Shown: one piece after another, positions 8,250 to 35,003 of the stretch
Layout: the number at the start of each line of letters is the position of its first letter
Position numbering within the stretch: the stretch's first letter is position 1
Origin: Ignavibacteria bacterium
GTDB lineage: Bacteria > Bacteroidota > Ignavibacteria > Kapaibacteriales > UBA4661
Direction of reading: 5' to 3'
Length of the DNA: 64,000 nt
Assembly (NCBI GenBank): GCA_013298775.1
Contig: JAAFIV010000021.1
Location: 1 to 64,000, forward strand
Notes under the pieces: generated by a model
The model's input: only the letters and a program-made list of their open reading frames with translations
What the model was told of the DNA's origin: nothing
Database searches by the model: none
Position numbers and translations under genes: made by a program

Positions 8250-9455
8250 CTATTTCCCCCAAAGCTCACGTGCTATGCGGCTTTTCAGAAAAACGTGTGC
8301 CTCGGCTTCTTGCCTACGTAGCTCAAGAATGTGATTATTACTCATACCTAAATAGCCTGAATCGCCCGCCAAATCTTGCTCTTGAACGAACTCCAAGAGA
8401 TTTTTTGTTTCTGTCCATTGTATGCTTGCATTGGTGAATTCTTTTTTTCCTTCGGCATTTGTTTGATACTCTTTCGTTGGAATTTCTGCTAATTCCGCAA
8501 ACGTCATTGTCCCCGTTTCAGGCGGGTTTTGGAGCATATTCCGTAGGAAATTTCTATCGCTGTGTTCTGGCGATGAGGACACGCGAATACCTACCGAGCC
8601 TAGAAATGATGCACTCTTTGAGGATGGTTGCCGAGTCCGCGACGGAGGTATCTGCGCCGAAAAGATATTTTTTTGTTCATAGACCAGCACCGCACTTTCT
8701 ATGCGATTGGTATCGTAGGTGTGTGCGTAAAAATTCCTCACCGTCTCACACTCTTTCTCTTCCAGCATTTCTGCTGGTATTGGGCGTTTTTGCGCAATGC
8801 GCTGAATTATGCCGTAGGTATTTGGACACAAGGTTTCAGCATTGAATAACTCATCTGTTCGCTGCAAGGCAGGTGAGAGTTTTTCTGCAATGCGCCGCCC
8901 GACGCTGTGCGAGGAAATGATGTGAATATTAGCATATGCAAAGTCGGAAATACGCATCAGTGCTTGCTTCAAGGTTAGCTCTTCTGGAAATGAAGAGCCT
9001 TGCATTCTGCGAATTGCTTCTAGTCGTTCCAAGCCAGACATTGGCTCGTATGAGTATATATCCTTGCGAGCAAGTTTGTCTTGTTGTGAAAAATACGCAA
9101 ACGGTATTGCTACGCGCTGTTGCAATGTTGGGCGAAAGTTCAAGGAAATATGCGGCTTTGCAAAGACCTTTTTTCCAATGCTCAACCACACAAGTTCAAA
9201 AAGTGCGGGGTTATTTTTGTCCTCTCTTTGCAGAGCGAAAACAACGACTTCACTTCCCTTCTTCTCCTTAGCAATGGTGCAAAGGGAATCGCGCAAAGCA
9301 GACTCACACACGCGCCAGCACGTGAACGCGACATTTGGGTCGGGTGTTTTGAAAGCTACCGGAGCAAGTATTGGTGAGCTTTTTGCTGGTATCTGACAAT
9401 AAAGTTCATTGTGCAACAACAGCATTAGAATAAAAGTAGCAAGAAATTTCATCAT
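8250..9455 (-). CDS. Exported protein of unknown function, paralogue of the C-terminal half of its neighbour
   Basis: 401 residues with a signal peptide (MMKFLATFILMLLLHNELYC, then QIPA). No family is recognised. Residues about 215-260 (GIIQRIAQKRPIPAEMLEEK and the following CETV..FY..TY...RI) align with residues about 640-688 of the 807-residue product of the gene immediately upstream. Weaker similarity extends on both sides, including W+V..SAL.D near the start and a T.E+..+A segment near the end. The start codon overlaps the upstream stop by 4 bp (ATGA), so the two are translationally coupled. Sequence between the conserved blocks is Ser/Pro-rich (PPSRTRQPSSKSAS). It lies between two 7TMR-DISM kinases on the same strand, so a link with their signal is possible but unproven. 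Confidence 0.8.
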   Translation of the reverse strand: MMKFLATFILMLLLHNELYCQIPAKSSPILAPVAFKTPDPNVAFTCWRVCESALRDSLCTIAKEKKGSEVVVFALQREDKNNPALFELVWLSIGKKVFAKPHISLNFRPTLQQRVAIPFAYFSQQDKLARKDIYSYEPMSGLERLEAIRRMQGSSFPEELTLKQALMRISDFAYANIHIISSHSVGRRIAEKLSPALQRTDELFNAETLCPNTYGIIQRIAQKRPIPAEMLEEKECETVRNFYAHTYDTNRIESAVLVYEQKNIFSAQIPPSRTRQPSSKSASFLGSVGIRVSSSPEHSDRNFLRNMLQNPPETGTMTFAELAEIPTKEYQTNAEGKKEFTNASIQWTETKNLLEFVQEQDLAGDSGYLGMSNNHILELRRQEAEAHVFLKSRIARELWGK

Positions 9456-11875
9456 CGTTTTCCTTGAAGTCGGTTCGAGGGTCTATATATATTCATCGCC
9501 GGAAGCGGCATCACATCTAATGTTCTCTCGCGTAAACGTCCTTGTTTTAGCTTATCAAAGAGATGCTCATACATTGTGGAGTGCTGTGATTGAGTAATTG
9601 CGCCTTTTACAGCAATCATCTCCCCTGTTTTTGCGTCTTTTTCAAACTCTGTTGTTGTGAATTGGCGCAAATCTTCGCCCAGCAAACAACCAGTGGAAAG
9701 CGGTGCCAGCAAGCAATCATGCAGTATTGTGGATTCAAGGCTATCGCAGATATTCTTTGGCATTGAAACAGAAACGGCAGCAAGAATCTCTGGCTTGTTG
9801 GCACGAACATTCACCAGAAGCATCACTTTATCAATACGCACCAGTGAATACGAAGTGGTATGGTATAATTTCACCACCTCGCAGTCCTGCGGGCTGCCGC
9901 CTTCATCAATCCACGCCTGTGGAACGCGCTGCCCAGCTTCTATCTGGGCGATGATACGCTTTGTTGTGAGGCACATTTTTTCTGCTTCCTCCAAACCTTG
10001 CGTTCTAGGAAGGCTTGGCGTAAAGGTCTCACGAAAACGGGCGACACTCACACTATCTGCCTCGAAGAGCGCGAATCCACCAAGTTCGTAGTTTCTGATG
10101 CTGCGGAGATTTTGCCTTAGATTTGCACATGTTTCTTTGAATATCGCTTCACGTGCAGCAGCGAGCATCGTGCTTTGCTCACCTTCAGAAAGTACGCCAT
10201 ACAAATAGCCTTTTTTTGTTCCTACAACGCTATCCTCAGCTTCACTCAAGCGAGCAATAATCGGGCTTCGTAAGAGTGTCTGAATGCTGGAAGGTACATA
10301 CATTTGTATTTCACGCGGTGTAAGAACATGCTCACCAAAGCGCAGAGCCACAAGGCTATAAGGGAATTGTGCATTTTTTTTTGCAATGACAACTAAAGGA
10401 ACGCTGCTTGGCAATGGCTTCATTACTGACATCTTTCCAGCTTGTACAAATATCGCTTGAATTTCATCATGCAAGGCAGGACTAAGTACCTTCCAAGCGT
10501 GATAAACACTTGCTTTTTTGGCATTCGTGGCAATTGTACTTTTTTCTTCTGAGCAATGTGCGCATATCTCTTCTGCGGGCAGGTTTGGTGTTTTTTCTTC
10601 TGGCGGACGCGCAGCACCAATACTCGACCAGCAATTCACCCATTCTACCTTGCTGGTATTTCTATCGTAGGGAATGGCAATTTTTACAAAACATGGTGTC
10701 ACATAACTCGGCGCACTCACACCTGCCTTGCGATTCACCACTTGTATTTGTTGTTGAAACTCCAACACGCCTTTCAGGATGCGGGTTTCGGGTATGGGAA
10801 AAGTTGGAACAATTACCGCCACAACAGCATATAATTCTTTCTCATTCGGCAGAAAACCAGCATCCACACAGCGTGTACTCGTCGTGGTGATTGCAAATGG
10901 GCGCGTTTCTCCGCCAGAATAGTCTGCGCTAATGCTAAGATTGCTCGACGGCGATTGGTGCTGTATGCTGGGAAGCCGCATAATTTCTACATTTTCAGCT
11001 TGTGCAAATAATACTTTTTGTGCAATCGGGTCGCGGGAATCAGCATCAATCGGCACTTCTTTGTGCATGCGAATACCTTTCACCGTAAAGAAAATCTCCT
11101 GCAAGCGGCTTGAATCTAGCATTGCTAAACGTTCTTTGCTTCGTGAAATTTTCCCTTTTTTCTCAAGGTCTCTCAGCGTTGAATCATTCGCAAAACTTGC
11201 TTGCGCGTTGATGCAATCAAGCTCTGGCGGCTCTTGTATGGGAATCATTGTTTTGCTGAGAAGCGGCACACGCTCGCCCGTCGGCGGATACACCCAAACA
11301 ACATCTATTCGTACCGTTTTCGCGCTTGCCGGAATTCTTGGACCAAACCACGACTCGGCATAAGCAGCATCCACCATGCTTGGTCCGTCACCAATTGTAA
11401 CGTTGATTTTGAACTGCTCTCGAGGTAATTCTGCTTCCACAGGCAAACGAGAACGAAGACTACAACGACACCCAAAGTAGCATTGTAACGTTGATATTGA
11501 ACTCCAGTTTTGTTCATGTAATTGACTGCGAAGCACCTTCCAAACACACTCTTTGGTCTCTGTGCCGCTTGAAACCTTGATGGAGTACGTTCCTGCACCG
11601 ATGCGTGATTCAAAGTGTAGTTCATATCGCCCATTACCCAGAGCCTTGATAGAATAAGGGCTGCGTGGCAATGGCGTTACCGAAATGTGCGGCTCTTCGG
11701 GCGAGGAAAAGGAGATAATGGTTTTTGTTAAGCGGTCAAATGTACAAAGACGCTCATCAAGGGCAAGTCTTGGAGGGATAGTTTGTGAAAGCAAGGTGTA
11801 TCCACTGGTACAGGGCAGAAACATTACCCCACCAATTACAATAAACAGAACAAAAAGACACAATGTTCGTTGCAT
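9452..11875 (-). CDS. Large exported protein of unknown function
   Basis: 807 residues with a signal peptide (MQRTLCLFVLFIVIGGVMFL). The N-terminal half is predicted beta-rich: residues 50-115 read like an Ig- or GldM-like sandwich (SISVT-type strands, GNGRYELHF, GAGTYSIKVSSG). There are many cysteines (for example CYFGCRC near 132-138, ICAHC near 438), unusual for an exported protein unless disulphide-bonded or metal-binding. The C-terminal third (about 455-800) resembles the whole of the following 401-residue protein (RIIAQIEAGQRVPQAWIDEG near 640). The gene is separated by 92 bp from the upstream kinase and overlaps the downstream gene by 4 bp. Function unknown; the GldM-like impression is too weak to use as a name. 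Confidence 0.8.
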   Translation of the reverse strand: MQRTLCLFVLFIVIGGVMFLPCTSGYTLLSQTIPPRLALDERLCTFDRLTKTIISFSSPEEPHISVTPLPRSPYSIKALGNGRYELHFESRIGAGTYSIKVSSGTETKECVWKVLRSQLHEQNWSSISTLQCYFGCRCSLRSRLPVEAELPREQFKINVTIGDGPSMVDAAYAESWFGPRIPASAKTVRIDVVWVYPPTGERVPLLSKTMIPIQEPPELDCINAQASFANDSTLRDLEKKGKISRSKERLAMLDSSRLQEIFFTVKGIRMHKEVPIDADSRDPIAQKVLFAQAENVEIMRLPSIQHQSPSSNLSISADYSGGETRPFAITTTSTRCVDAGFLPNEKELYAVVAVIVPTFPIPETRILKGVLEFQQQIQVVNRKAGVSAPSYVTPCFVKIAIPYDRNTSKVEWVNCWSSIGAARPPEEKTPNLPAEEICAHCSEEKSTIATNAKKASVYHAWKVLSPALHDEIQAIFVQAGKMSVMKPLPSSVPLVVIAKKNAQFPYSLVALRFGEHVLTPREIQMYVPSSIQTLLRSPIIARLSEAEDSVVGTKKGYLYGVLSEGEQSTMLAAAREAIFKETCANLRQNLRSIRNYELGGFALFEADSVSVARFRETFTPSLPRTQGLEEAEKMCLTTKRIIAQIEAGQRVPQAWIDEGGSPQDCEVVKLYHTTSYSLVRIDKVMLLVNVRANKPEILAAVSVSMPKNICDSLESTILHDCLLAPLSTGCLLGEDLRQFTTTEFEKDAKTGEMIAVKGAITQSQHSTMYEHLFDKLKQGRLRERTLDVMPLPAMNIYRPSNRLQGKR

Positions 11876-23077: not shown

Positions 23078-26000
23078 TCACCCTTTTGCACGAGGCAATT
23101 CTACAATAAACGTTGCGCCCTTGCCAAGCTCCGATTCGCACCACACCCTGCCGTTCATTGCTTCGACCATTTTTTTGACAATGCTCAAGCCCAGACCTGT
23201 ACTGTGTTCGCCGCCTGTTGGACGTGCAGAAAGACGGGCGAATTTCCCGAACATTTTTTTCATATCTGCTTCAGATATTCCAGGTCCTTCATCCTGCACT
23301 TCCACGCGCACGGCTTCAGTGCTTGATTTCAAACGAATAAAGACACTCTTTTCGTGCGGTGAATATTTCACAGCATTCGAGATAAGATTATCCACAACCT
23401 GCATGAATGCTTGCTCATCAGCAAGAACGGTGACATCTTGATTGGGAAACTCTGTATGAAGAGTAATTTTTTTTGATGATGCTTGGTATGCAAATACTTC
23501 TACAATACTGACAAGCATTGGCTTCGGCTGAATTGTCGTAATGTGTATTTTCAATGCTCCTGATTCAATCGTATTGAGTTCCAAGAGATTTTTTATCAGT
23601 GCAAACATCCGCTCTGTTGAGTTAAAAATCTGCTTTCCTACTTCTTGAGCCATTTCGTTCTCTACCCCTCCTGCAATCACTTCTGCTAATCCCTGAATAC
23701 CCGAAAGCGGACTTTTGAGATCATGCACGACAATGCCCATAATTTCATTTTTTTCTCGATTTGATTCTGCTAACTGGTCATTCAACTGCGTAAGTTTTTG
23801 GTGTCTCGACCAAAGCTCTTGTTGAGCTACTTCTATGTCGGCGTATGCGGCTGAAAGTTTATTATTGGTAGCAGAGAGTTGTACTGTTTGCTCTTGTAAT
23901 TCTTGTGTTCGGACAGTAACTCTTTCCTCCAGCCAATGATTCATTTGCTCAATCTGAAGTTGCGCGATACGGCGATTGGTGATGTTATGCGCAACAAAAC
24001 ACACCGCTACTATCTCTCCTTGTACATTTCGCACAGGATTGTAGCTTATTTCCCAAAATATTGGAGATTCGGAAGAAAAAGGATTCGGCAGTTCAATATC
24101 AAATTCTAAGGAATTTCCCTGCATTACTGTTGCAAAATCTCGCTCCACATCAGCAATACGCTGACCTGCATACTGACGGACATCAAGACCTATCACGGGT
24201 TCAACATCAGGCTTCATTGCAAGCATTGATTGATATGCTGATTTATTGAACCTGAGCAGTTTGAAATCCGCACTGACAAGAGTCATCACATCCCCTGACG
24301 CATCAAGCATACTTTGGGTTGTCAAATCCGTCGTTAATCGCTCCTCTTCTTGTGTGCGCAGTTCTTCTGTTATGTCGTATTCAATAGCCACAAACGATAT
24401 GCAACTACCGTTATCATCGAATACAGGCGTTATCGCTAAACGAAGCCAATACTCTCGCCCTTCTTTGGTATAGTTCAAAATATTGCATTCGATGGGCTGA
24501 TACGCCTGAAGTGCTTGGGAAATGTGTTGTACCGTTTCTCGGTTGGTATTTTTTCCCTGAAGCACGGAACCAGGTTTTTTGCCCTGCATATCGGCAAGCG
24601 AATAACCAGTCAATCGCTCAAATGCTTGATTGACGAATTTTGTACGCCCCAGAACGTCGGTAATAACAACAACTTGCGAGGTTGTATCGGCAACTAACGC
24701 CAATAAAGCCTTCTCTTCCAGCAATGCACGCCGAATTTGGTCATTTTCAATCAAAGAAGCATTTTGACTTTCAACTTCTTCTTTCAGGTCTTGAGATTTT
24801 TTCAGAAGGTCTTGCAAATGCTCTTCGTACCGAGCTTGCTGACGGCTTCGTTGCACAAGAATAATGACAATAATCACACCGGCAAGAACAAGAACTCCCA
24901 GAAGAATAGTTATGGCGGTTCTTCGTTCGTTTTTTTCCGTGAGCAACTGTATTTCTGCTTCTTGTTCGGCAAGCCTCCCTCTCTCCTGCACTTCAATAAT
25001 TCTGGTATTCACGTTATCGTTGATAATAGAATCCTTCATTGTAACGAGTAAACGTAACACCGCCACTACTTCATCATTTCGCTTCCATGCCTCATAAATA
25101 CGTGCTTGAACGGAATACAACTCAAGTTTTTCCTTTTTGCGAACAAGCGGATGCGCAAGCCCTCGTTCCGTGTACGCAAAGGCTTGGTCGAGAAAGGATG
25201 TTGTCTTGCTCTTCAAAGCATTATCATTGCTCAATGCTGCCTGAACAAGAGCATCAGCAATTAGCACACACACCGAAGGACGTATGCGTTCACCGAAGGC
25301 AAGTGTATCGAAGCGAACAAGGGAATCAATGAGTGGAATAGCTTCTCGAAAGCGCGACAGTGAAGAAAGAGCTTGGACTTCCTGACCAAGTAAATTCACG
25401 ATATGCAACGTATCACGCAGAGACCACGCCAACTCTACCCCTTCGCGTGCAGACAAGTAGGCAGAATCAGGCTTTTCCAATGACCGATACAGAGAAGCCA
25501 TTGATTTCAGCCATTCTATACGAAAAGACTTTCTCCCATCTCTGCGCATATACGTTTCAGCAGCATAAAGGAAATGCTTTGCCTTTTCGGGTTGGTTCAT
25601 GGCGAGAGAAATCTCGGCGACATTGAGACGAGCAAGGAAGGAGTTACGATTATCGTGCATTGCATCCCCAAGGGCAATCTCACGCTCATAATACTGCAAG
25701 GCAGTAGAAAACATCTCTTGTTGCTGGTACATCAATCCTATCAGCCCAGAAAGTGCAGCGATATTGAAGGAATCTTTGAGAGCCTCAAAGGTGTGCAACG
25801 CAAGGTGCAATGTATCGGAGGCTACCGAGAATCGGCGTTCTAAACGCAGGATATTGCCGACATTTTCGTATAAACGGGCTTGTAAATATTTGTTGTTCAG
25901 TGAAGCGACGATAGGACGCACTTCTTCCACAAAAAGACGCATTTGTGCGGTATTCGGACGATAATTTCTGGCTGTCATAAAAACAAGATGCACGTAGCCA

Positions 26001-26152
26001 GAATCATTCGTCAATCCTTGTGAACGCCGTGTTTGGAGTTCTTTCAATAAGGAATCACGTGAGAGGAATTGAGCAACAAGGGGAGGTGTCTGCCAGCACG
26101 CCAGAGCAATAGACAATAAGCACGTAATAATGTTCACGTTGAAGCGTATCAT
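23078..26152 (-). CDS. TPR-PAS-PAS sensor histidine kinase
   Basis: 1024 residues, the largest kinase here. Signal peptide (about 1-28), TPR-like repeats (about 50-370), membrane helix near 395-425 (LLGVLVLAGVIIVIILV), coiled coil, a first PAS domain (about 475-600; FVNQAFERLTGYSLADMQGK and the PAC end AIEYDITEELRTQ), a second, more diverged PAS (about 605-730; AVCFVAHNITNRR), another coiled coil, then HisKA (GIVVHDLKSPLSGIQGLA) and HATPase (NLISNAVKYSP; DEGPG). The H-box has Ser in place of the usual Asn and a specificity stretch unlike the GAVR group. It combines an envelope-side TPR input with cytoplasmic PAS inputs. It ends in the shared tail (GKGATFIVELPRAKG). Confidence 0.92.
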   Translation of the reverse strand: MIRFNVNIITCLLSIALACWQTPPLVAQFLSRDSLLKELQTRRSQGLTNDSGYVHLVFMTARNYRPNTAQMRLFVEEVRPIVASLNNKYLQARLYENVGNILRLERRFSVASDTLHLALHTFEALKDSFNIAALSGLIGLMYQQQEMFSTALQYYEREIALGDAMHDNRNSFLARLNVAEISLAMNQPEKAKHFLYAAETYMRRDGRKSFRIEWLKSMASLYRSLEKPDSAYLSAREGVELAWSLRDTLHIVNLLGQEVQALSSLSRFREAIPLIDSLVRFDTLAFGERIRPSVCVLIADALVQAALSNDNALKSKTTSFLDQAFAYTERGLAHPLVRKKEKLELYSVQARIYEAWKRNDEVVAVLRLLVTMKDSIINDNVNTRIIEVQERGRLAEQEAEIQLLTEKNERRTAITILLGVLVLAGVIIVIILVQRSRQQARYEEHLQDLLKKSQDLKEEVESQNASLIENDQIRRALLEEKALLALVADTTSQVVVITDVLGRTKFVNQAFERLTGYSLADMQGKKPGSVLQGKNTNRETVQHISQALQAYQPIECNILNYTKEGREYWLRLAITPVFDDNGSCISFVAIEYDITEELRTQEEERLTTDLTTQSMLDASGDVMTLVSADFKLLRFNKSAYQSMLAMKPDVEPVIGLDVRQYAGQRIADVERDFATVMQGNSLEFDIELPNPFSSESPIFWEISYNPVRNVQGEIVAVCFVAHNITNRRIAQLQIEQMNHWLEERVTVRTQELQEQTVQLSATNNKLSAAYADIEVAQQELWSRHQKLTQLNDQLAESNREKNEIMGIVVHDLKSPLSGIQGLAEVIAGGVENEMAQEVGKQIFNSTERMFALIKNLLELNTIESGALKIHITTIQPKPMLVSIVEVFAYQASSKKITLHTEFPNQDVTVLADEQAFMQVVDNLISNAVKYSPHEKSVFIRLKSSTEAVRVEVQDEGPGISEADMKKMFGKFARLSARPTGGEHSTGLGLSIVKKMVEAMNGRVWCESELGKGATFIVELPRAKG

Positions 26153-26244: not shown

Positions 26245-28074
26245 TTATGCAGTTGGCAATTCCACAATAAACGTCGCGCCCTTACCAAGCTCCGATTCGC
26301 ACCAGACCTTGCCGTTCATTGCTTCCACCATTTTCTTTACAATGCTCAAACCCAGACCTGAACTGTGTTCGCCGCCTGTTGGTTGCGCAGAAAGCCTAGC
26401 AAATTTACCAAAGAGTTTTTTCATATCTTCTTCGGAAATACCAGGTCCTTCGTCTTGCACTTCAACGCGCATAGCACTCTCCATTGCACGAAGACGAATG
26501 ATAATGTTTGTCTCAAAGGGCGAATACTTTAGCGCATTAGAAACAAGATTATCAAGGACTTGCGTAATGGCTTGCTCATCCACTGCTACGTGAAATTCCT
26601 CTCCAATTTTCTCCAGATGCAGGGTAATATTTTTTTTCTCGGCATTGGCGTGATATTCAAACATTAAGGAATCAAGAATGGAATACAGTGAGGCAGAAAT
26701 CATCTTGTACTGCATTGAGCCTTGCTCCATGCGGTTCAAATCCAGAAGATTGGTCACCAATTCCAACATCCTTTCGGTCGTCGTAATAATTTTAGTCGCA
26801 ATATCAGGAATATTTTGTGCTTGAACGTACCCTTGCAAAATCATATCGGCAAAGAGGCGGACCGCACCAATAGGGTTCTTCAGGTCGTGTGAAACAATGC
26901 CCATTATCTCGTTTTTCTCTGTGTTCAAGGTGTTGAGTTCCACATTTTGCTCGGAGAGCTTCGTATTGGCAAGCTGAATGGCAATAGATTGTTCCTCAAG
27001 TTCGCGGTTTTGCTCTTCGAGTTTGTTGTTGGCAAGCTGAATTTCTGCCGCTTGACGCGCCAATTCTTCGGTTTGTTCTCGCGCCTTTTGAAGCTGTGTG
27101 CGCTTATCTTCCAAAACCATTTCGAGTGCCTTGAAAATATCTGCATACAAATCATTATTGGGAATGCTCGGCATGGGAATATCATCAACGTCACTTGACT
27201 CAATACGGGCAAGAATCGTGTACATTTGGTCGAGGCGTTCTTGGTGAATATCCTTTCTGCCAACAAGTTCGGCTCCCCTTGTCGCGGCATACGCCGTAGC
27301 GTTTTGTAGCACACTTGAAGCAGATGGCTGTTTCATAAAATAGGTTTGCAAGATTGCCCGAAACGCATCGTCAAACGAACCAAAAATCCGCCATGTTGAA
27401 TACGCATGCGGCAGTGCTTTTTGGGTAATGGCAAAGCTAATGCGCAGCACATCACCAGCTATCAGGAAGACAGTTTCTCGCTCACCGCGTTCCCATTTCT
27501 CTGCGAGAATTTGCCGTGTCCGCCGAGAGGCGTATTTATCCACCTTTCCCGTATGCAACGTGTTATTGATGGTCCTTTGCTCATGCCAGCCCATGCAGCT
27601 TTTGATGCTATCTGCCGTTTCGACAATTCGCTCAAATGCTTCTTCGGAAATATCGCCCCGCGATTCTGTGTAAGCAAATGCTCCTTCCACAACAAATGCC
27701 CGATAGCTCATTGCCCCAGCAGTGTACACCCATTCTTCTTTTTCTACGATACGGAAATTCATGCCCAAAACAGTGAGATATGCTTTTTTTTCATCCCAAA
27801 GAGCGTCAAAAAGCGGATTTGCTGGAAAGCGGAGTTCACTTTCCAGCAGAGATGCTTTCTGCATCCGTGCAGATGAGAATCGAACAAGAAGAAGGATATT
27901 GAGCGCGAGAAAAATTGCTCCCACGATAAGGGGAAAGACTCGGTTGCTACTGCTGTTCAACAGAAACAAGCACACTCCCACACCGATAATATTGACACTT
28001 ATCAGCACTATCCAGAGTGTTTTTTTTTGCCAACGAAAGCTCGCCGTTGGTGAGTTCTGGAGTTCGTGGTTCAT
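26245..28074 (-). CDS. Sensor histidine kinase with unrecognised cytoplasmic sensor region
   Basis: 609 residues. Two membrane helices near 18-68 with a very short loop, then about 220 residues (about 75-300) that match no family known to me; they contain VYTAGAMSYRAFVVEGAFAY and RETVFLIAGDVLRISFA. A heptad coiled coil with repeated QLANTKLSEQN-type units (about 310-370) leads to HisKA (GIVSHDLKNPIGAVRL) and HATPase (NLVSNALKYSP; DEGPG; SSGLGLSIV) and the shared tail. It starts 16 bp after the stop of the terpene-cyclase-like membrane gene, so the two are probably in one operon with the TPR kinase further upstream. Confidence 0.9.
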   Translation of the reverse strand: MNHELQNSPTASFRWQKKTLWIVLISVNIIGVGVCLFLLNSSSNRVFPLIVGAIFLALNILLLVRFSSARMQKASLLESELRFPANPLFDALWDEKKAYLTVLGMNFRIVEKEEWVYTAGAMSYRAFVVEGAFAYTESRGDISEEAFERIVETADSIKSCMGWHEQRTINNTLHTGKVDKYASRRTRQILAEKWERGERETVFLIAGDVLRISFAITQKALPHAYSTWRIFGSFDDAFRAILQTYFMKQPSASSVLQNATAYAATRGAELVGRKDIHQERLDQMYTILARIESSDVDDIPMPSIPNNDLYADIFKALEMVLEDKRTQLQKAREQTEELARQAAEIQLANNKLEEQNRELEEQSIAIQLANTKLSEQNVELNTLNTEKNEIMGIVSHDLKNPIGAVRLFADMILQGYVQAQNIPDIATKIITTTERMLELVTNLLDLNRMEQGSMQYKMISASLYSILDSLMFEYHANAEKKNITLHLEKIGEEFHVAVDEQAITQVLDNLVSNALKYSPFETNIIIRLRAMESAMRVEVQDEGPGISEEDMKKLFGKFARLSAQPTGGEHSSGLGLSIVKKMVEAMNGKVWCESELGKGATFIVELPTA

Positions 28075-28090
28075 AAAGACAGATTTGTTG

Positions 28091-28786
28091 CTATGACTGA
28101 ATTTTATTGGGAAGAATTTTTAGAAGAATAAGATAGGCAATATCGCCAACAAAAACCAACACTCCCATTGTAAACAAAAAGAGGTTAAAGGGCGCATTAA
28201 AAAACACCGCAACCGTCGTAAATGCTGTCCCCAACATTTTCAACCATGCTACTGAAGGAAGAAAAACACGCTGATTATACAAACGGAGGTACTGATAAAG
28301 GTAAATAATGGAAATAACGATATTCAGAAGATATGCCGACATTGCTTCGCGGATAAGGTCGTCATTGGTGGTCATGGCAGTTTCGCCCATTCCCGCATCA
28401 GCGATAACCCACACAAATACCCCCCAAAAAATCATCAATGCGAGGGTGATTGGTTTGATATATTGAAGGATAAGTGGTGTGCTTATCTCGTTCTTTGCAT
28501 ACTTCACGGCAAAATACATATTCACGCAATCAATCAAAAACCAAATGCGTACTCCCCATTGAATGATAGGATTCAAGGTAGGGTCGTACGGAAAAACGAA
28601 TCCGTACAAGCCTTCCCATACCAAATCCCCCGTGATGATAAATATCGGGATTTCGATAAACTGATTTTTTCGCGCATGGAAAATCAGAATAATGTACACC
28701 GCAATCCACGCAATATTACCAATAAGCGCGGGAAGAACAACATTGAGCGGAAGTCCGTTGGGAGAAAAAATATGGAGCGAGTGCAT
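28091..28786 (-). CDS. Seven-helix membrane protein resembling Pyr4/PaxB-type transmembrane terpene cyclases
   Basis: 231 residues, almost entirely hydrophobic, with about seven membrane helices. The pattern is that of the fungal meroterpenoid/indole-diterpene cyclases: a helix ending in DLVWEGLYGFVFP (Glu58), a following helix with VNMYFAVKYAKNE, a WLKMLGT motif near 181-187 and a final helix with VFVGDIAYLILL (Asp215). In Pyr4, as I recall, two acidic residues at equivalent places (Glu63, Asp218) are needed for cyclisation. A ribosome-binding site (AAAGGAA) lies 7 bp before the ATG. It sits between two kinase genes, 45 and 16 bp away, so its role could be enzymatic or sensory. The assignment rests on motif and topology read by eye. 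Confidence 0.6.
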   Translation of the reverse strand: MHSLHIFSPNGLPLNVVLPALIGNIAWIAVYIILIFHARKNQFIEIPIFIITGDLVWEGLYGFVFPYDPTLNPIIQWGVRIWFLIDCVNMYFAVKYAKNEISTPLILQYIKPITLALMIFWGVFVWVIADAGMGETAMTTNDDLIREAMSAYLLNIVISIIYLYQYLRLYNQRVFLPSVAWLKMLGTAFTTVAVFFNAPFNLFLFTMGVLVFVGDIAYLILLKILPNKIQS

Positions 28787-28831: not shown

Positions 28832-30805
28832 TCATTTTGTCGGCAATTCCACAATAAACGTCGCACCTTTACCGAGTTCCGACTCACACCACACCTTGCC
28901 ATTCATAGCCTCGACCATTTTTTTGACAATGCTGAGACCCAGACCAGTACTGTGTTCGCCGCCTGTGGGCTGGGCGGAGAGGCGAGCGAATTTACCGAAA
29001 AGCTTTTGCATATCGTCTGCCGAAATACCTGGACCTTCATCGCGAATTTCAACGCGAACCGCTTTCATACTAGCATTTACGCTCACAGCAATATTTTTGT
29101 TATGCGGCGAATATTTCACGGCATTCGAGATGAGATTATCCAGAACCTCAATAAACGCTTGCTCATCGGCATAAATATCAATGGTATCCTTCTCTGATGT
29201 ATAATGAATAGTAATGTTTTTCGCTTGTGCAAGAGATTGATACCCCATCGCAATATTGTGGACAACAGGAACGGCATCGAAATTGACACAGGAAAACAGC
29301 ACACCACCTTGTTCTAAACGATTGATATCCAAGAGACGAGTGACCAATTCAAGCATTCTGTTCGATATACTGACAATTTTTTCTGCCATGCCAGAAACAT
29401 CTTCTGGATTCACGTGCCCTTCTTGTATCAATTCCGCAAAATTCCGAACAGCACCAATAGGATTTTTCAGGTCGTGCGAAACGATTCCCATGAACTCATT
29501 TTTCTCGGTATCCAATGCAAGCAACACCTGATTCTGTTCTTGAAGTTGCGTATTGGCAATTTCAATTTCGGTTGCCTGCTCTTCCAAAATACTTTTTTGG
29601 CTCTGAATCTCGATGTTGGCTTCCTGAAGTTCGGTATTCTTCCGTTGTGTCGTTTGCATTGATTTTATCATAAACCCAATAATGAACAGAAGAAGAATAC
29701 TGCCACCAATCACTCCAAAACTCGTCATTCGTTCACGCTGAATTTGTATATCCTGAATACGTTTATCTCGCAGCAATAGTTGTTTCTCCGCTTCAGAACG
29801 CTCAATGTTCAATCGCGCTTGAAAGGCTGCGATATTGTTCTGTGCTTCAATCACATCGGCAGAATCTTTAATTGCCAAAAAACTCCTGTACGCCAGCAAT
29901 TCCTGGCGCGTGTCGCCCATATCTTTACAGATACTCGCCAGCAGCCGGTAACTATCTACTTTGATGATAAATAATCCTTCATGATATTTACACTTTTCGA
30001 TACCACGCTGAATGGCTTGCAATGCCTCAGCATACTTTTTTTGCCGATAGTAGAGAAGCCCAATCAGTCGCAACGAAACCGCCTCGCCGAATGCCTGACG
30101 CGCAGCAACCCGTATTTCCAATGCGCGACGCGCACAGACCAACGCCGAATCATACTGTTTGCGCGCTTCATAAATCACGCCAATACTATGCAATGCCCAG
30201 CTTTCTTGCTCCGCGTTGTGTATTGCCTTTGCCTGACGGAGAGCAGATTCGTGAAGCGATAATGCTGCATCAAAATTCTTTTCCACTCTGTATAATCGTC
30301 CGAGCGCGTTCAGACAGGAGGCTTCGAGCAGCGTATCGCCGAAGGAGTGAGCCGTCGCTAATGCCTTGCTCAGTTGGTTTCGTGCCTGCTGACGCGAGAG
30401 AGAATCACTTTTGGTCTGCTGCCCAGCTGCAAAGCCAATGTTTCTGAGCGCGTGAGCAATCAAGAGTGGATTTCCGATACTCTCAGCCAAACGAAGTTGA
30501 CGAAAACCAAGCCCCAGTGCCGCTTCTATTTTGCCGACGATAATTGTCCAGTACGTCAGCATATCCAAGGCTTCGACCATTCCTTCTTTATAGTCAATCT
30601 TTTCGGCTAATGCAAGAGCTTCGGATGCGTAGCGGTAGGTTGTGTTACGAGAGTTTTCCTGAAAGAACGAATATTGGCGAGCGAGCGCATTCAAGCTGTC
30701 CGCCTGTGCTTTTACGCTGCGTTCGTTGCTGCTTTGAACTGCGACACCTTCTGAAGTAAACAAACACAACAGAACGCCAAGAACAAGTATTCTGCAAAAT
30801 CCCAT
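28832..30805 (-). CDS. TPR-domain sensor histidine kinase
   Basis: 657 residues from the ATG at 30805, which begins a signal peptide (MGFCRILVLGVLLCLF). An in-frame GTG at 30835 would add ten residues. TPR-like repeats over about 45-350, a membrane helix (GVIGGSILLLFIIGFMI), coiled coil, HisKA (GIVSHDLKNPIGAVRNFA) and HATPase (NLISNAVKYSP; DEGPG; STGLGLSIV), ending in the shared tail (GKGATFIVELPTK). It appears to be the first gene of an operon with the terpene-cyclase-like protein and the kinase at 26245-28074. The gap upstream contains only repeats. Confidence 0.9.
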   Translation of the reverse strand: MGFCRILVLGVLLCLFTSEGVAVQSSNERSVKAQADSLNALARQYSFFQENSRNTTYRYASEALALAEKIDYKEGMVEALDMLTYWTIIVGKIEAALGLGFRQLRLAESIGNPLLIAHALRNIGFAAGQQTKSDSLSRQQARNQLSKALATAHSFGDTLLEASCLNALGRLYRVEKNFDAALSLHESALRQAKAIHNAEQESWALHSIGVIYEARKQYDSALVCARRALEIRVAARQAFGEAVSLRLIGLLYYRQKKYAEALQAIQRGIEKCKYHEGLFIIKVDSYRLLASICKDMGDTRQELLAYRSFLAIKDSADVIEAQNNIAAFQARLNIERSEAEKQLLLRDKRIQDIQIQRERMTSFGVIGGSILLLFIIGFMIKSMQTTQRKNTELQEANIEIQSQKSILEEQATEIEIANTQLQEQNQVLLALDTEKNEFMGIVSHDLKNPIGAVRNFAELIQEGHVNPEDVSGMAEKIVSISNRMLELVTRLLDINRLEQGGVLFSCVNFDAVPVVHNIAMGYQSLAQAKNITIHYTSEKDTIDIYADEQAFIEVLDNLISNAVKYSPHNKNIAVSVNASMKAVRVEIRDEGPGISADDMQKLFGKFARLSAQPTGGEHSTGLGLSIVKKMVEAMNGKVWCESELGKGATFIVELPTK

Positions 30806-30978
30806 ACACGCTCTGGAAAGTGGTCGTGAAATCACACACTATCAAGTGGTGGTGAAATCACAAAATACAAAATCAAAGCAAATATTGAGCATTCGATACT
30901 TCTTTTCATGCAGGTAGAACCAGCATTTTTTGCTGTAATGCCCACTGTCGCGCCTCCACCAGCGCGAGGCGGGCAATA

Positions 30979-31119: not shown

Positions 31120-31196
31120 TTGGGCGGGCAATACTTATCCCACTGAACAGGAATATAACGTGAACGCCCAGAGCTGTCAATATACAAAGCGTATCG

Positions 31197-33077
31197 TCAC
31201 TGCGGCACATCCTCCAAAGCCCGCAGAAATGCTATGATTGCTTGCTGTTCGGAAGGCGTGAGGCGAAGCGGGTCGGGTGATAATGTTTGATGCTCCACGC
31301 CGCGAACACCAATTCCCACGCCGCCGCCACGATTGTAAAAATCCATCACTTGTTCAAGCGTCTCGTACACGCCGTTGTGCATATACGGTGCTGTGAGCGA
31401 GGAATTACGCACGGTTGGGGTTTTGAAGGCGTATTTATGCGCCGCGTAGGCATTGATGGCAAAACGCCCCACATCTGCATCAATGCTCGCGTTTACGGTT
31501 TTTGCTTCACGCGGAACGCCAATCACTTCCTGCTCGGTGCGCAAATACACTGGCGGAACCGTTCCGTTGAAAAGCGGCGCGAAATGGCACGTTCCGCATT
31601 TTGCTTTGCCCATGTAGAGATTAAAACCGTGCTTTTCTGTTGCCGAAAGGATAGACGTATCGCCGCGCATAAAGCGGTCGAAGCGTGAATTAAGCGCAAC
31701 GAGCGACCGCTCGAATGCAGCAATCGCTTGTTTGATGCGGAGTTCGTTCACAGGCGTTTGCGATGAATCGCTGAATGACCGCATAAATGCTTGCGTGTAG
31801 GATTTGTTCGCACTCAACCGCTTCACTGCTTCTGCGAGCGAGCCGTGCATTTCATCCACGTTTTGCACAACATCGCTAGCTTGGTCTTCCAAAAAAGCAA
31901 CACGCAAATCAAGGAATTGTGAGGTTTGCAGGGCAGCATTGAGCAAGGTCGGCGCGTTGCGTTGCACTTTGCCGGCGGGCGTAAGCGCGGCACTTGTCCG
32001 CAAGCCGTCGGTGAATGCTTTGTCAGGCTGATGACAGCTTGCGCAAGCGCGTGTACCATTGCCAGAAAGTACGGGGTCGGTGAAAAGCTGCTTGCCAAGC
32101 GCGATTTGAGCGTTTCGCTGCTCGGCAGTAAAGTCACGCGCAAAGACGGGCGCGAAGTGCAGAACATTAAACGCGGCGGAATCGAAAATATGCCGTGCTT
32201 CCGCCCGAAATGCCGACGAAAACGGCAAAGGAGCAATATTCAGTGCGGCTTGTAAGGACTTCAACTGTGCGGCTAAAGGATTGACGCTGCCTACAAACCA
32301 TGCAGCGCGGTCAAACGCCAGAAAATCTGTACTTGCGCGGCATTCAGCGATTGCCCGTGTGAACAAGGTTTGAAGCGACTTCCACGCCTTATCCAGTGAA
32401 TCCGATGTTTTCCGAGCAGGTGCATACTGCTGTACGACTTCTTGCAATTCTTCCAGCACCAATGCGGCATCCGCAACACCTGTGAGCAAAACAGGCGCGT
32501 CAAAACCCGACACGCCAAGCGTTTGTACACGAGCAATTTCGAGCCAGAGCGCGTCGAAAACGTGCGCATCGGTAAGTTCTTGCGATTTCACGACTTGCTG
32601 CGCTCTTGTTGTCAGCGAAACAATCGTGCGCGTGTTGAAGCGAATAGTGGTGCTGTCTGCAAGGTTTATCTTCGGAAAGAGACTTTCTTCCAGCACTTGA
32701 AATCCCGTTGCGGGAACGACAATTTTATCATTTTCCTCAAATTCATCAATCGGCGCACCGTTGATTTCGTGCGCTGTTTGGGCGGCAAAGTATTCGATTG
32801 CCCATTCGGCACGTTTGTAGGCGGCGTGGGATTCGTGAAACGCCTGTTGTAGTGCGCGCCCACGGCTTGTATCGGTGATTTCACCCGCAGTGAGAGAGTC
32901 CAAACGCTGTGCTGCACTCTGCATGGTCTGAAGGTGGCTTTGTAGGCGGGTTTTGATGGTGGTCAATCGCTGCGTAGAGCTTGTCGATGCTTGCTCCGAT
33001 GGTGGATTTTTTGCAGAATTGCATGATACACAGCAGAGAACAACACAAAGAAACAATAGTGCAATATTTGGGCGCAT
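31197..33077 (-). CDS. Lipoprotein with imelysin-like domain fused to dihaem cytochrome c peroxidase/MauG domain
   Basis: 626 residues from the Met at 33077; lipobox LCCVSC then N. The N-terminal 270 residues are helical and imelysin-like (AYKRAEWAIEYFAAQ, INGAPIDEFEEND, GFQVLEESLFP). The rest is a dihaem peroxidase of the CCP/MauG family with haem-binding CASCH (about 345-349) and CGTCH (about 494-498), plus conserved RNAPTLLNAA and KTPTVRNSSLTAPYMHNG. It probably reduces peroxide or oxidises a periplasmic partner using cytochrome c. The imelysin-like part may bind metal, but no clear GxHxxE motif was seen. This fused layout is known in Bacteroidota. The ORF opens at 33113, but the lipobox fits the start at 33077. 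Confidence 0.88.
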   Translation of the reverse strand: MRPNIALLFLCVVLCCVSCNSAKNPPSEQASTSSTQRLTTIKTRLQSHLQTMQSAAQRLDSLTAGEITDTSRGRALQQAFHESHAAYKRAEWAIEYFAAQTAHEINGAPIDEFEENDKIVVPATGFQVLEESLFPKINLADSTTIRFNTRTIVSLTTRAQQVVKSQELTDAHVFDALWLEIARVQTLGVSGFDAPVLLTGVADAALVLEELQEVVQQYAPARKTSDSLDKAWKSLQTLFTRAIAECRASTDFLAFDRAAWFVGSVNPLAAQLKSLQAALNIAPLPFSSAFRAEARHIFDSAAFNVLHFAPVFARDFTAEQRNAQIALGKQLFTDPVLSGNGTRACASCHQPDKAFTDGLRTSAALTPAGKVQRNAPTLLNAALQTSQFLDLRVAFLEDQASDVVQNVDEMHGSLAEAVKRLSANKSYTQAFMRSFSDSSQTPVNELRIKQAIAAFERSLVALNSRFDRFMRGDTSILSATEKHGFNLYMGKAKCGTCHFAPLFNGTVPPVYLRTEQEVIGVPREAKTVNASIDADVGRFAINAYAAHKYAFKTPTVRNSSLTAPYMHNGVYETLEQVMDFYNRGGGVGIGVRGVEHQTLSPDPLRLTPSEQQAIIAFLRALEDVPQ

Positions 33078-33117
33078 ATCAACGGTAAATTTTGGTAAAA
33101 ATATAGACAACATAAAA

Positions 33118-33370: not shown

Positions 33371-34828
33371 TTATCGCGGTAAACCTTTGACGATAATAAG
33401 CTGGCTCGCTTGATTTTCATTCGGGCGAAGCATACCGCCATCCACACCTTTGTATTTATCGCCTGTCCAGCTATGTGGCTGTACACAAATCATGAATGTA
33501 TTCGCAATGCCAATCGTTGAGGAAATATCAACCATTGCGCCGTATTCCCACTGACCAAAGCGCGATGTGCCGCCAACGTTGTAAATAGCAGCATCAGAAG
33601 CCGTGCGGCGGTGGTCGAGTTCAATGATAGGCTTGAGTTCTTTGCTGCTAATGGTGTACTGATAAATGTAGGAATCATGTGTCTCATCGCTATAGTTGTT
33701 CGGGTCTTCCTGAATATACACGTAGTTCTCGGTAACGCAGATATTATCTGGGTTTTGGAAGGCTTTCGCTGGACCGTTGCGGTCGTCACCGTCCAAAATT
33801 ACTTCCAAGGTACCTTTAAGCGGGTTTGTAGCGTCCATCATGAGGCGATACACACGACCGTATTTTGAACGACCATAATCAGCGTTTACGCCTGTATTTC
33901 CTTGACCCGTAGCATTGAAATATACTTCCCGTGAAGCCGACGCACTGCCTTTGCGGTAATCAATATCTTCCACACGACCAAACGGCATAGCTCGCAACGC
34001 TGTTGAACGCTCGTTAATCTGGCGACCAGTCAGTGTTTTTTGATTTTCGATTTGGCGGAATTCAATATCATATTTTTGCCCAACAGCCATATCGCGCTCA
34101 CGAATATTGTTGTCAGTGCGAGCCATAACGTAGAGTCTGCCATTTTGGAATTCGCCTGGAGTGCTGATGTAGAGCGCGAGCTGACCGCCGTGTGTGCCAG
34201 AATCATCATCACCCAAAATCACGACCATTTGTCCAGCATACGCATTCGAGGGAAGTGGAACGGCATTTTCCGCACTCCATTTGCCCAAGCCTTCAGCAAT
34301 AACCGACGTATTCGGCGCACCTGATGGATTGACGATGTGCGTTTGTGATTCTTCGCCACTTTCGCCACAGATCAGGAAGCTCGTAAAACCATGCTCGGCT
34401 TGCGTGGTGAGCGTAGCCGAACACAAACGCCAGCGACCTGCAGTAGAATTCAGCACATACTCGCCACCTGTCGGCTTGAAGGTTTTGTCAAACGTGATGC
34501 GCGAAACAGCGAAGTTATCTTCGTGATTGACGAGTGCGGTAAAAGTGCTGTCAGCATTTCGGAGCAACCCCGCGCCATCAGCAGAGCCGCCAAACACGAA
34601 GTTTGGCGTTGAAGCGAGTTTGTCATCGCTGCCCAAAAGCGAGAAAATTTCCAAACCAGTAGTAAGCGACTTCGCCAATGCCGGCGTTACGGAATGATTC
34701 GCCAGAACAACAGGATTGACGGGCGTTACGGGCGTAATCGGCGTGGTACACGATGATACCACGAGCGTCAAAACACAAACGGCACATGAAATTGTGCGCA
34801 GAGGAAAACGGTGAAGAAGAGGTTTCAT
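33371..34828 (-). CDS. PhoX-like (DUF839) exported lipoprotein
   Basis: 485 residues from the second Met (34828), with a lipobox-like LTLVVSSC then TT and a Pro/Val/Thr linker. The body fits the DUF839/PhoX beta-propeller family: TALVNHEDNF, GRVEDIDYRKGS, AFQNPDNICVTENYVYIQED and QWEYGAMVDIS occur in the usual order. PhoX proteins are Ca/Fe alkaline phosphatases; the acidic and Asn residues are suggestive, but phosphatase activity cannot be confirmed by eye and many DUF839 proteins are uncharacterised. It is a single-gene unit with its own terminator. A phosphate-binding-like protein and porin occur 22 kb away. Confidence 0.75.
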   Translation of the reverse strand: MKPLLHRFPLRTISCAVCVLTLVVSSCTTPITPVTPVNPVVLANHSVTPALAKSLTTGLEIFSLLGSDDKLASTPNFVFGGSADGAGLLRNADSTFTALVNHEDNFAVSRITFDKTFKPTGGEYVLNSTAGRWRLCSATLTTQAEHGFTSFLICGESGEESQTHIVNPSGAPNTSVIAEGLGKWSAENAVPLPSNAYAGQMVVILGDDDSGTHGGQLALYISTPGEFQNGRLYVMARTDNNIRERDMAVGQKYDIEFRQIENQKTLTGRQINERSTALRAMPFGRVEDIDYRKGSASASREVYFNATGQGNTGVNADYGRSKYGRVYRLMMDATNPLKGTLEVILDGDDRNGPAKAFQNPDNICVTENYVYIQEDPNNYSDETHDSYIYQYTISSKELKPIIELDHRRTASDAAIYNVGGTSRFGQWEYGAMVDISSTIGIANTFMICVQPHSWTGDKYKGVDGGMLRPNENQASQLIIVKGLPR

Positions 34829-35003
34829 ACACAATCGGAAAAAATTTGGTGTGGGATTGAATTACAGGACGCAAGATAAGATGCGGATGTCAGGCAGGTG
34901 TTACGCGAAGATTAGGTTTTCGTAACCTTGGAAGATTGTGTTTTGCCTTTTGGTTACAATGCGATGATGCTGAAAAAATAATTGTACTTGTTGAATTGTG
35001 GAG

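Follow-up and report, generated by a model that had tools for sequence, protein, structure and literature searches.

What is a homologue of the membrane-embedded terpene cyclases doing between two histidine kinase genes? This question is raised by the window analyzed here, that is, the whole 64,000-nucleotide stretch at positions 1 to 64,000 of contig JAAFIV010000021.1 (Ignavibacteria bacterium, assembly GCA_013298775.1), in which a first-pass annotation had described a 231-residue protein resembling Pyr4 and PaxB that could either make a terpenoid signal or use this fold for sensing at the membrane. The features of the window on which our analysis centers are as follows:

28091–28786, minus strand: gene for the transmembrane terpene cyclase (TMTC) homologue, a Pyr4-type 7-TM protein, assigned by PF25129 match, 7-TM model, and topology by the positive-inside rule
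26245–28074, minus strand: partner histidine kinase, 609 aa, assigned by Pfam and by its alignment with the kinase portion of the fusions L013 and L014
27085–27834, minus strand: MID domain of the partner kinase, common to the fused kinases
28832–30835, minus strand: upstream TPR-histidine kinase (Pfam), a possible operon partner
23078–26152, minus strand: TPR-PAS-histidine kinase (Pfam) located downstream within this run, a candidate member of the unit

A Pyr4-Type Homologue with a Predicted Seven-Helix Fold

The 231-residue open reading frame at 28091–28786 was confirmed and lies on the minus strand (the strand had not been given before), with stop codons on the plus strand, and it contains all four of the motifs previously quoted for it (VWEGLYGFVFP, FVGDIAYLI, MYFAVKYAKNE, and WLKMLGT). 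We take this to be a real gene, as homologues are found in congeners at 63% and 54% identity and a purine-rich ribosome-binding site precedes its ATG. The proposed membership of the Pyr4/PaxB family was borne out by profile search, with the Pfam profile for Pyr4-TMTC (PF25129) matching at E = 1e-15 and 58.5 bits against a cut-off of 27, and both the length of 231 aa and the seven helices agree with the size of this family (seven transmembrane helices, about 220–250 aa). Judged by its sequence, the window protein is a true Pyr4-type TMTC homologue. Sequence and profile searches of the PDB with this protein matched zero chains up to E = 10.

The AlphaFold2 model, built from an input of 40 homologues (mean pLDDT 88, pTM 0.85), has seven long helices, spanning residues 14–41, 48–64, 73–95, 110–130, 140–169, 177–197, and 202–224, in line with the layout that the first-pass annotation had read from the letters. 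Across the homologues found in a signaling context, the mean number of lysine and arginine residues is 1.9–3.7 in loops 1–2, 3–4, and 5–6 and at the C-terminus, compared to 0.1–0.7 at the N-terminus and in the remaining loops; by the positive-inside rule, this distribution argues for an N-out/C-in topology, such that the C-terminus is predicted to be cytoplasmic, which is the orientation needed for driving a kinase. When the model was compared with solved structures by VIA-align, the KDEL receptor ranked first (Z 14.1 over 193 residues, 4.1 Å), followed by cystinosin (Z 12.4) and the SWEET sugar transporters (Z 11.6), with the next unrelated folds at Z 7.3. Foldseek placed the same families at the top with weak E-values (0.02 for the KDEL receptor), and the likeness is thus based on the VIA-align Z-scores and not on the Foldseek E-values. 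We read this modeled resemblance as one of fold only, which makes no claim to superfamily membership and is by itself silent on function. No paper in the open-access literature searched mentions "terpene cyclase" together with "KDEL receptor", and the resemblance predicted here between the Pyr4 fold and that of the KDEL receptor and SWEET is unreported there.

Kinase Neighbors in the Window and Kinase Fusions in Congeners

Read along the minus strand, the TPR-histidine kinase, TMTC, and partner kinase genes follow one another with gaps of 45 and 16 bases, which is the gene order originally described. The partner kinase comprises two hydrophobic stretches, a MID domain, a coiled coil, and HisKA (3e-11) and HATPase (1e-29) domains matched by Pfam, with an SHDLKNP motif. 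A promoter-like match lies at 31152–31180, upstream of the TPR kinase, and no terminator-like site was found between the TMTC gene and the next kinase gene in a consensus scan; hits of this sort are at least as frequent in shuffled sequence. Position alone is weak evidence, since HisKA is matched 134 times in the genome (5.19 Mb, 99% complete), with many of these matches on the window contig, which is a kinase island. This island covers 1–41037 of the window, and its numerous histidine kinases, several of which have TPR or 7TMR-DISM sensors, are encoded almost entirely on the minus strand. The upstream TPR kinases of the window and of L012 and L015 belong to a large paralogous set and are not clear orthologues, so a TPR kinase specific to the TMTC is not supported, and from its sequence this gene is a possible operon partner.

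Among the adjacent window genes scanned, we found no prenyltransferase or epoxidase gene. A dihaem cytochrome c peroxidase/MauG family protein is encoded just upstream of the kinase-TMTC run (31197–33113, minus strand); this MauG/RoxA-like cytochrome was considered as a stand-in for the oxygenase described below and dropped, as its match to the rubber oxygenase RoxA reaches 19.7 bits against a cut-off of 26.7 and no recurrence was observed. Large open reading frames with no significant Pfam match also lie near the kinases, at 8250–9455, 9452–11875, and 33371–34834 on the minus strand.

Stronger evidence for a link to signaling is provided by two congeners of the window species, in which a single open reading frame encodes a Pyr4-TMTC followed by MID, HisKA, and HATPase domains (L013:6809–9298, 829 aa, genome G006, and L014:3798–6254, 818 aa, G001). 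The two fused proteins are only 41% identical, and this divergence makes an assembly error an unlikely source of the fusions. In the 609-aa kinase of the window, the part that aligns with the fusions (44% identity to L013 over the aligned positions) takes in MID, the coiled coil, HisKA, and HATPase, and the two hydrophobic stretches stand in place of the TMTC. Because the next-gene kinase is thus homologous to the fused kinase over the cytoplasmic length, the window pair looks from sequence like, at most, a split version of the fusion. The TMTC and MID-kinase genes at L016 (G009) are likewise adjacent but separate. In the family tree, the L013 fusion is the sister (100/97) of a group formed by the window protein and its two closest relatives.

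The MID domain occurs in one or two copies in each of the TMTC-linked kinases (window, L013, L014, and L016) and has neither a PDB match nor a firm match in Pfam. Across ten genomes from this family, it was found only in G000, G001, G006, and G009, all of which bear a TMTC; it was found neither in four relatives lacking a TMTC nor in G002 and G007, fragmented assemblies in which a TMTC is present. In its predicted order of strands and helices, MID is tentatively STAS/SpoIIAA-like, and for one copy a putative resemblance to DUF7793 falls below the cut-off. When the whole fused model was used for fold searches, kinase domains took up the results, which were uninformative on MID.

Oxidase-TMTC-Output Cassettes in Other Genomes

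We surveyed homologues with the Pfam family and with a profile of the signaling-type members, followed by neighborhood reading and Pfam scans. A recurring layout emerged in about 30 other genomes from two classes, in which an oxidase, the TMTC, and a variable signaling output are encoded together, with the TMTC as the constant element and the genes often separated by a few bases or overlapping by 4. The oxidase is usually an MPAB/Lcp-type heme oxygenase (PF09995) that aligns with LcpK30 of Streptomyces K30 over the heme region (E about 1e-34), including the histidine of the K-x-R-x-x-H motif. A flavoprotein oxidase takes its place at L104, L165, L167, and L168; those of L104, L165, and L168, which were scanned, are nearest to HpnE and phytoene desaturase, below the cut-offs of both.

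The outputs, part of which were scanned against Pfam and the rest assigned by local profile or phmmer matches, are as follows:

MID-histidine kinase: L016
SpoIIE phosphatase: L017, L090, L091, L101, L165
7TMR-DISM-SpoIIE: L159, and similarly L160 and L161
Class III nucleotide cyclase: L062, L104, L168
Ser/Thr-kinase-AAA-GAF with cyclase: L018, L092, L097, L099, L103, L162, L166
Ser/Thr-kinase-AAA-GAF with SpoIIE: L058, L093, L094, L095, L098
Ser/Thr-kinase-AAA-GAF with histidine kinase: L100
7TMR-DISM-type kinase-receiver, located upstream: L164

The giant Ser/Thr-kinase-AAA-GAF proteins, such as those at L018:9719–14725, L058:1773–7064, and L100:7286–12631, carry interchangeable C-termini behind the MPAB-TMTC pair.

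The signaling-context sequences of the first survey form one clade (99/96), apart from UbiA-linked cyclases and from lone homologues in family f29, with the exception of L104; the placement of L104, L055, and L062, all on long branches, is unsure. About 33 of the 37 clade members are adjacent to or fused with a signaling gene, a count that includes as probable L163, where the gene is cut by the contig end, and L096, which was read from sequence. No adjacent signaling gene is present at L019, L020, or L167, and L102 is cut. The first-pass annotation had suggested looking for prenyltransferases or kinases beside bacterial homologues; a UbiA query detected no prenyltransferase beside the signaling-clade members examined, and the link to signaling is now supported beyond the window by the fusions and the conserved cassettes.

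In a class-wide survey of 391 genomes, a TMTC was found in 25 and an MPAB protein in 31, with 22 of the 25 TMTC genomes having both (Fisher p = 8e-26, uncorrected for phylogeny). The TMTC genomes without MPAB are only that of the window and those of two congeners; PF09995 has zero matches in the whole window genome, where TMTC and output are present. We also note two genomes with two TMTC copies each: in G006, the copy at L020:7607–9681 is paired with MPAB and the other is the kinase-fused L013, and in G001, L019 accompanies the fused L014. In such genomes, the two copies may act on a common molecule, one as its producer and the other as its sensor.

Other branches of the family differ in context. 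At L057:5739–8508 and L055:6109–7760, a Pyr4-type cyclase lies beside a UbiA prenyltransferase, with an FAD oxidoreductase also present at L057, and we consider these loci, which come from other families of the phylum, to be candidates for meroterpenoid clusters. Family f29, putatively green-sulfur-bacteria-like by gene content, has lone Pyr4-type homologues (L045–L054, L056, and L059–L061), several of them beside a geranylgeranyl-reductase-like or ClpS-like gene, and four f29 homologues lack the catalytic glutamate (WAV instead of WE). For two of the plasmid homologues, from Nostoc and Streptomyces, the annotation within 5 kb shows neither an oxidase nor a kinase.

Conservation of the Active-Site Pocket

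The residues of the pocket can be compared with those of the bacterial cyclase DmtA1, in which activity is abolished by E60A/Q, W29A, W59A, and Y33A/F substitutions and little activity is left in the D214A, Y217A, and N56A variants (PMC6173783). Of these, W29, Y33, W59, and Y217 are conserved positions, for which a strict family-wide requirement is not established. Residues D94 and E133 of DmtA1 are specific to the DmtA proteins and were not required. Three codons of the window gene are of particular interest:

28613–28615, minus strand: Glu58, equivalent of the catalytic E60 of DmtA1
28142–28144, minus strand: Asp215, equivalent of D214 of DmtA1
28625–28627, minus strand: Asp54, equivalent of N56 of DmtA1

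Of the seven family-conserved pocket residues found important by DmtA1 mutagenesis, the window protein retains six (W27, Y31, W57, E58, D215, and Y218). The exception is position 54, which is Asp in this protein alone and Asn in all 49 other aligned homologues. Across the signaling clade, the equivalents of W27, Y31, and E58 are present in 37/37 sequences and that of D215 in all 36 that cover the position, with W57 and Y218 kept in 35/37 and 34/36, respectively. The acidic pair singled out by the first-pass annotation, Glu58 and Asp215, is therefore invariant among the signaling-type relatives and present in all close homologues. As far as the alignment can tell, the signaling clade retains the catalytic pocket, with one pocket change in the window protein.

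A Proposed Membrane Input That Probably Still Handles an Isoprenoid

Taking these observations together, we favor, with moderate confidence, a role for the TMTC as the membrane input of a signaling system, which binds, and probably still cyclizes, an isoprenoid. The seven-helix body (N-out, C-in) would bind an isoprenoid or prenylated lipid in the Glu58/Asp215 pocket and probably still protonate or cyclize it; where a cassette oxidase is present, the ligand would be an isoprenoid oxidized by that enzyme. Occupancy or turnover would then act on the 26245–28074 kinase, altering its MID domain and coiled coil and thereby its autophosphorylation. As the window species has no MPAB oxygenase, its ligand would come from another enzyme or from outside. 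The fusion to a histidine kinase favors a receptor-like role, and the complete active site and linked isoprenoid-type oxidases favor retained substrate handling; both can coexist in one protein.

This input role is consistent with the restriction of MID to TMTC-bearing genomes of the family, and with the homology of the window kinase to the fused kinases. Also in its favor are the two single-frame fusions, the signaling partners of about 33 of 37 clade members, the MPAB-TMTC co-occurrence, the conserved active site, the predicted cytoplasmic C-terminus, and the predicted fold, which is nearest to the KDEL receptor and SWEET. Against it, several outputs already include a membrane sensor (7TMR-DISM in L159 and L164, and the hydrophobic stretches of the window kinase), and because of these may not need the TMTC as a sensor. 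The loci without a signaling neighbor (L019, L020, and L167), the kinase-rich genome, the N54D change, and the absence of MPAB also count against it.

A further proposal, which we advance only tentatively, is that of a reaction-coupled receptor. Here the TMTC would be a working cyclase, and its turnover of an oxidized isoprenoid, for which menaquinone or polyprenyl lipids are possible sources, would in itself constitute the signal to the histidine kinase, phosphatase, or nucleotide cyclase. If true, this would constitute a new bacterial class of isoprenoid or oxygen/redox sensing in at least two classes of one phylum.

Alternatively, the TMTC could be purely an enzyme that, with the oxidase, makes a diffusing cyclized terpenoid sensed by the output's own sensor region. 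Such a circuit would account for the complete active site in the clade, for cassette oxidases from families in which the known enzymes have isoprenoid substrates (MPAB/Lcp, or nearest HpnE/phytoene desaturase), for the 7TMR-DISM sensors of some outputs, and for the output-less MPAB-TMTC pair that G001 and G006 possess besides the fusion. However, L013 and L014 carry the TMTC and the kinase in one covalent chain, the Ser/Thr-kinase-AAA-GAF outputs have no membrane sensor domain in Pfam scans, none of the clade members examined has a prenyltransferase beside it, and the window genome lacks MPAB. We regard this alternative, the main rival to our reading, as rather unlikely.

We consider it improbable that the cyclase fold and pocket were kept only for isoprenoid binding, with catalysis lost. 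The kinase fusion, a receptor (the KDEL receptor) as the nearest solved fold, and the combination of N54D and a missing oxygenase in the window species would all suit such a protein, yet the residues important for catalysis, the tyrosine hydroxyl and both acids included, are all kept in about 37 sequences from two classes, which exceeds the apparent needs of binding.

Finally, an ordinary biosynthetic cyclase among kinases by chance, as might be imagined from the 134 HisKA matches in the genome and the probably biosynthetic UbiA-linked members in the same phylum (L055 and L057), is very improbable in view of the fusions, the matching MID kinase next door, the separate signaling clade, and the lack of a prenyltransferase beside any clade member examined; we note that the fusions and the cassettes elsewhere are the only reason for rejecting chance adjacency to the kinases.

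Significance and Comparison with Known Systems

The first-pass annotation had known of no described bacterial member of this family tied to signaling, and none was found in the open-access literature, where no paper mentions "transmembrane terpene cyclase" together with "histidine kinase" (subscription papers and preprints being outside the scope of this search); our claim to novelty is made within that literature. Of the 1107 bacterial Pyr4-like sequences found in a survey from 2026, the 264 with nearby terpenoid genes were kept and 843 set aside, and the text of that survey mentions neither kinase nor sensor (PMC13307353). Our data suggest a role for some of these 843 sequences, and make isoprenoid sensing by a bacterial cyclase testable. 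They tie a natural-product enzyme family to signal transduction through a modular cassette with exchangeable outputs in dozens of genomes, and the cassettes and fusions point to an undescribed bacterial way of sensing or signaling with isoprenoids.

The described Pyr4-like cyclases, including fungal Pyr4 and PaxB and bacterial DmtA1, XiaE/XiaH, TylF, GroF, and the zig cyclase, share with the window TMTC the PF25129 domain, the seven helices, the acidic pair, and the aromatic pocket residues. Whereas these known members lie beside prenyltransferase and epoxidase or P450 genes, the signaling clade lies beside MPAB or desaturase-like oxidases and signaling proteins, and is kinase-fused in two species. 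The MPAB/Lcp oxygenases, to which the oxygenase of most cassettes belongs and which the window genome lacks, have been described for rubber cleavage and mycophenolic acid, and not for signaling. The predicted fold resembles that of the PQ-loop proteins (KDEL receptor, SWEET, and cystinosin), from which the TMTC differs in giving no sequence match, in being bacterial, and in having no link to trafficking or sugar.

Among sensors, the 7TMR-DISM, LytS-type (5TMR-LYT), and other multi-TM kinases resemble the TMTC fusions in placing a multi-helix membrane domain N-terminal to the kinase, and these systems share modular outputs (kinase, SpoIIE, and cyclase) with the cassettes. The re-use of the S-component transporter fold as a kinase sensor offers a precedent (PMC11109136). 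Unlike the 7TMR-DISM, LytS-type, and other multi-TM sensors, to which it is unrelated in fold, the TMTC is a domain that comes from an enzyme family and has retained its catalytic residues.
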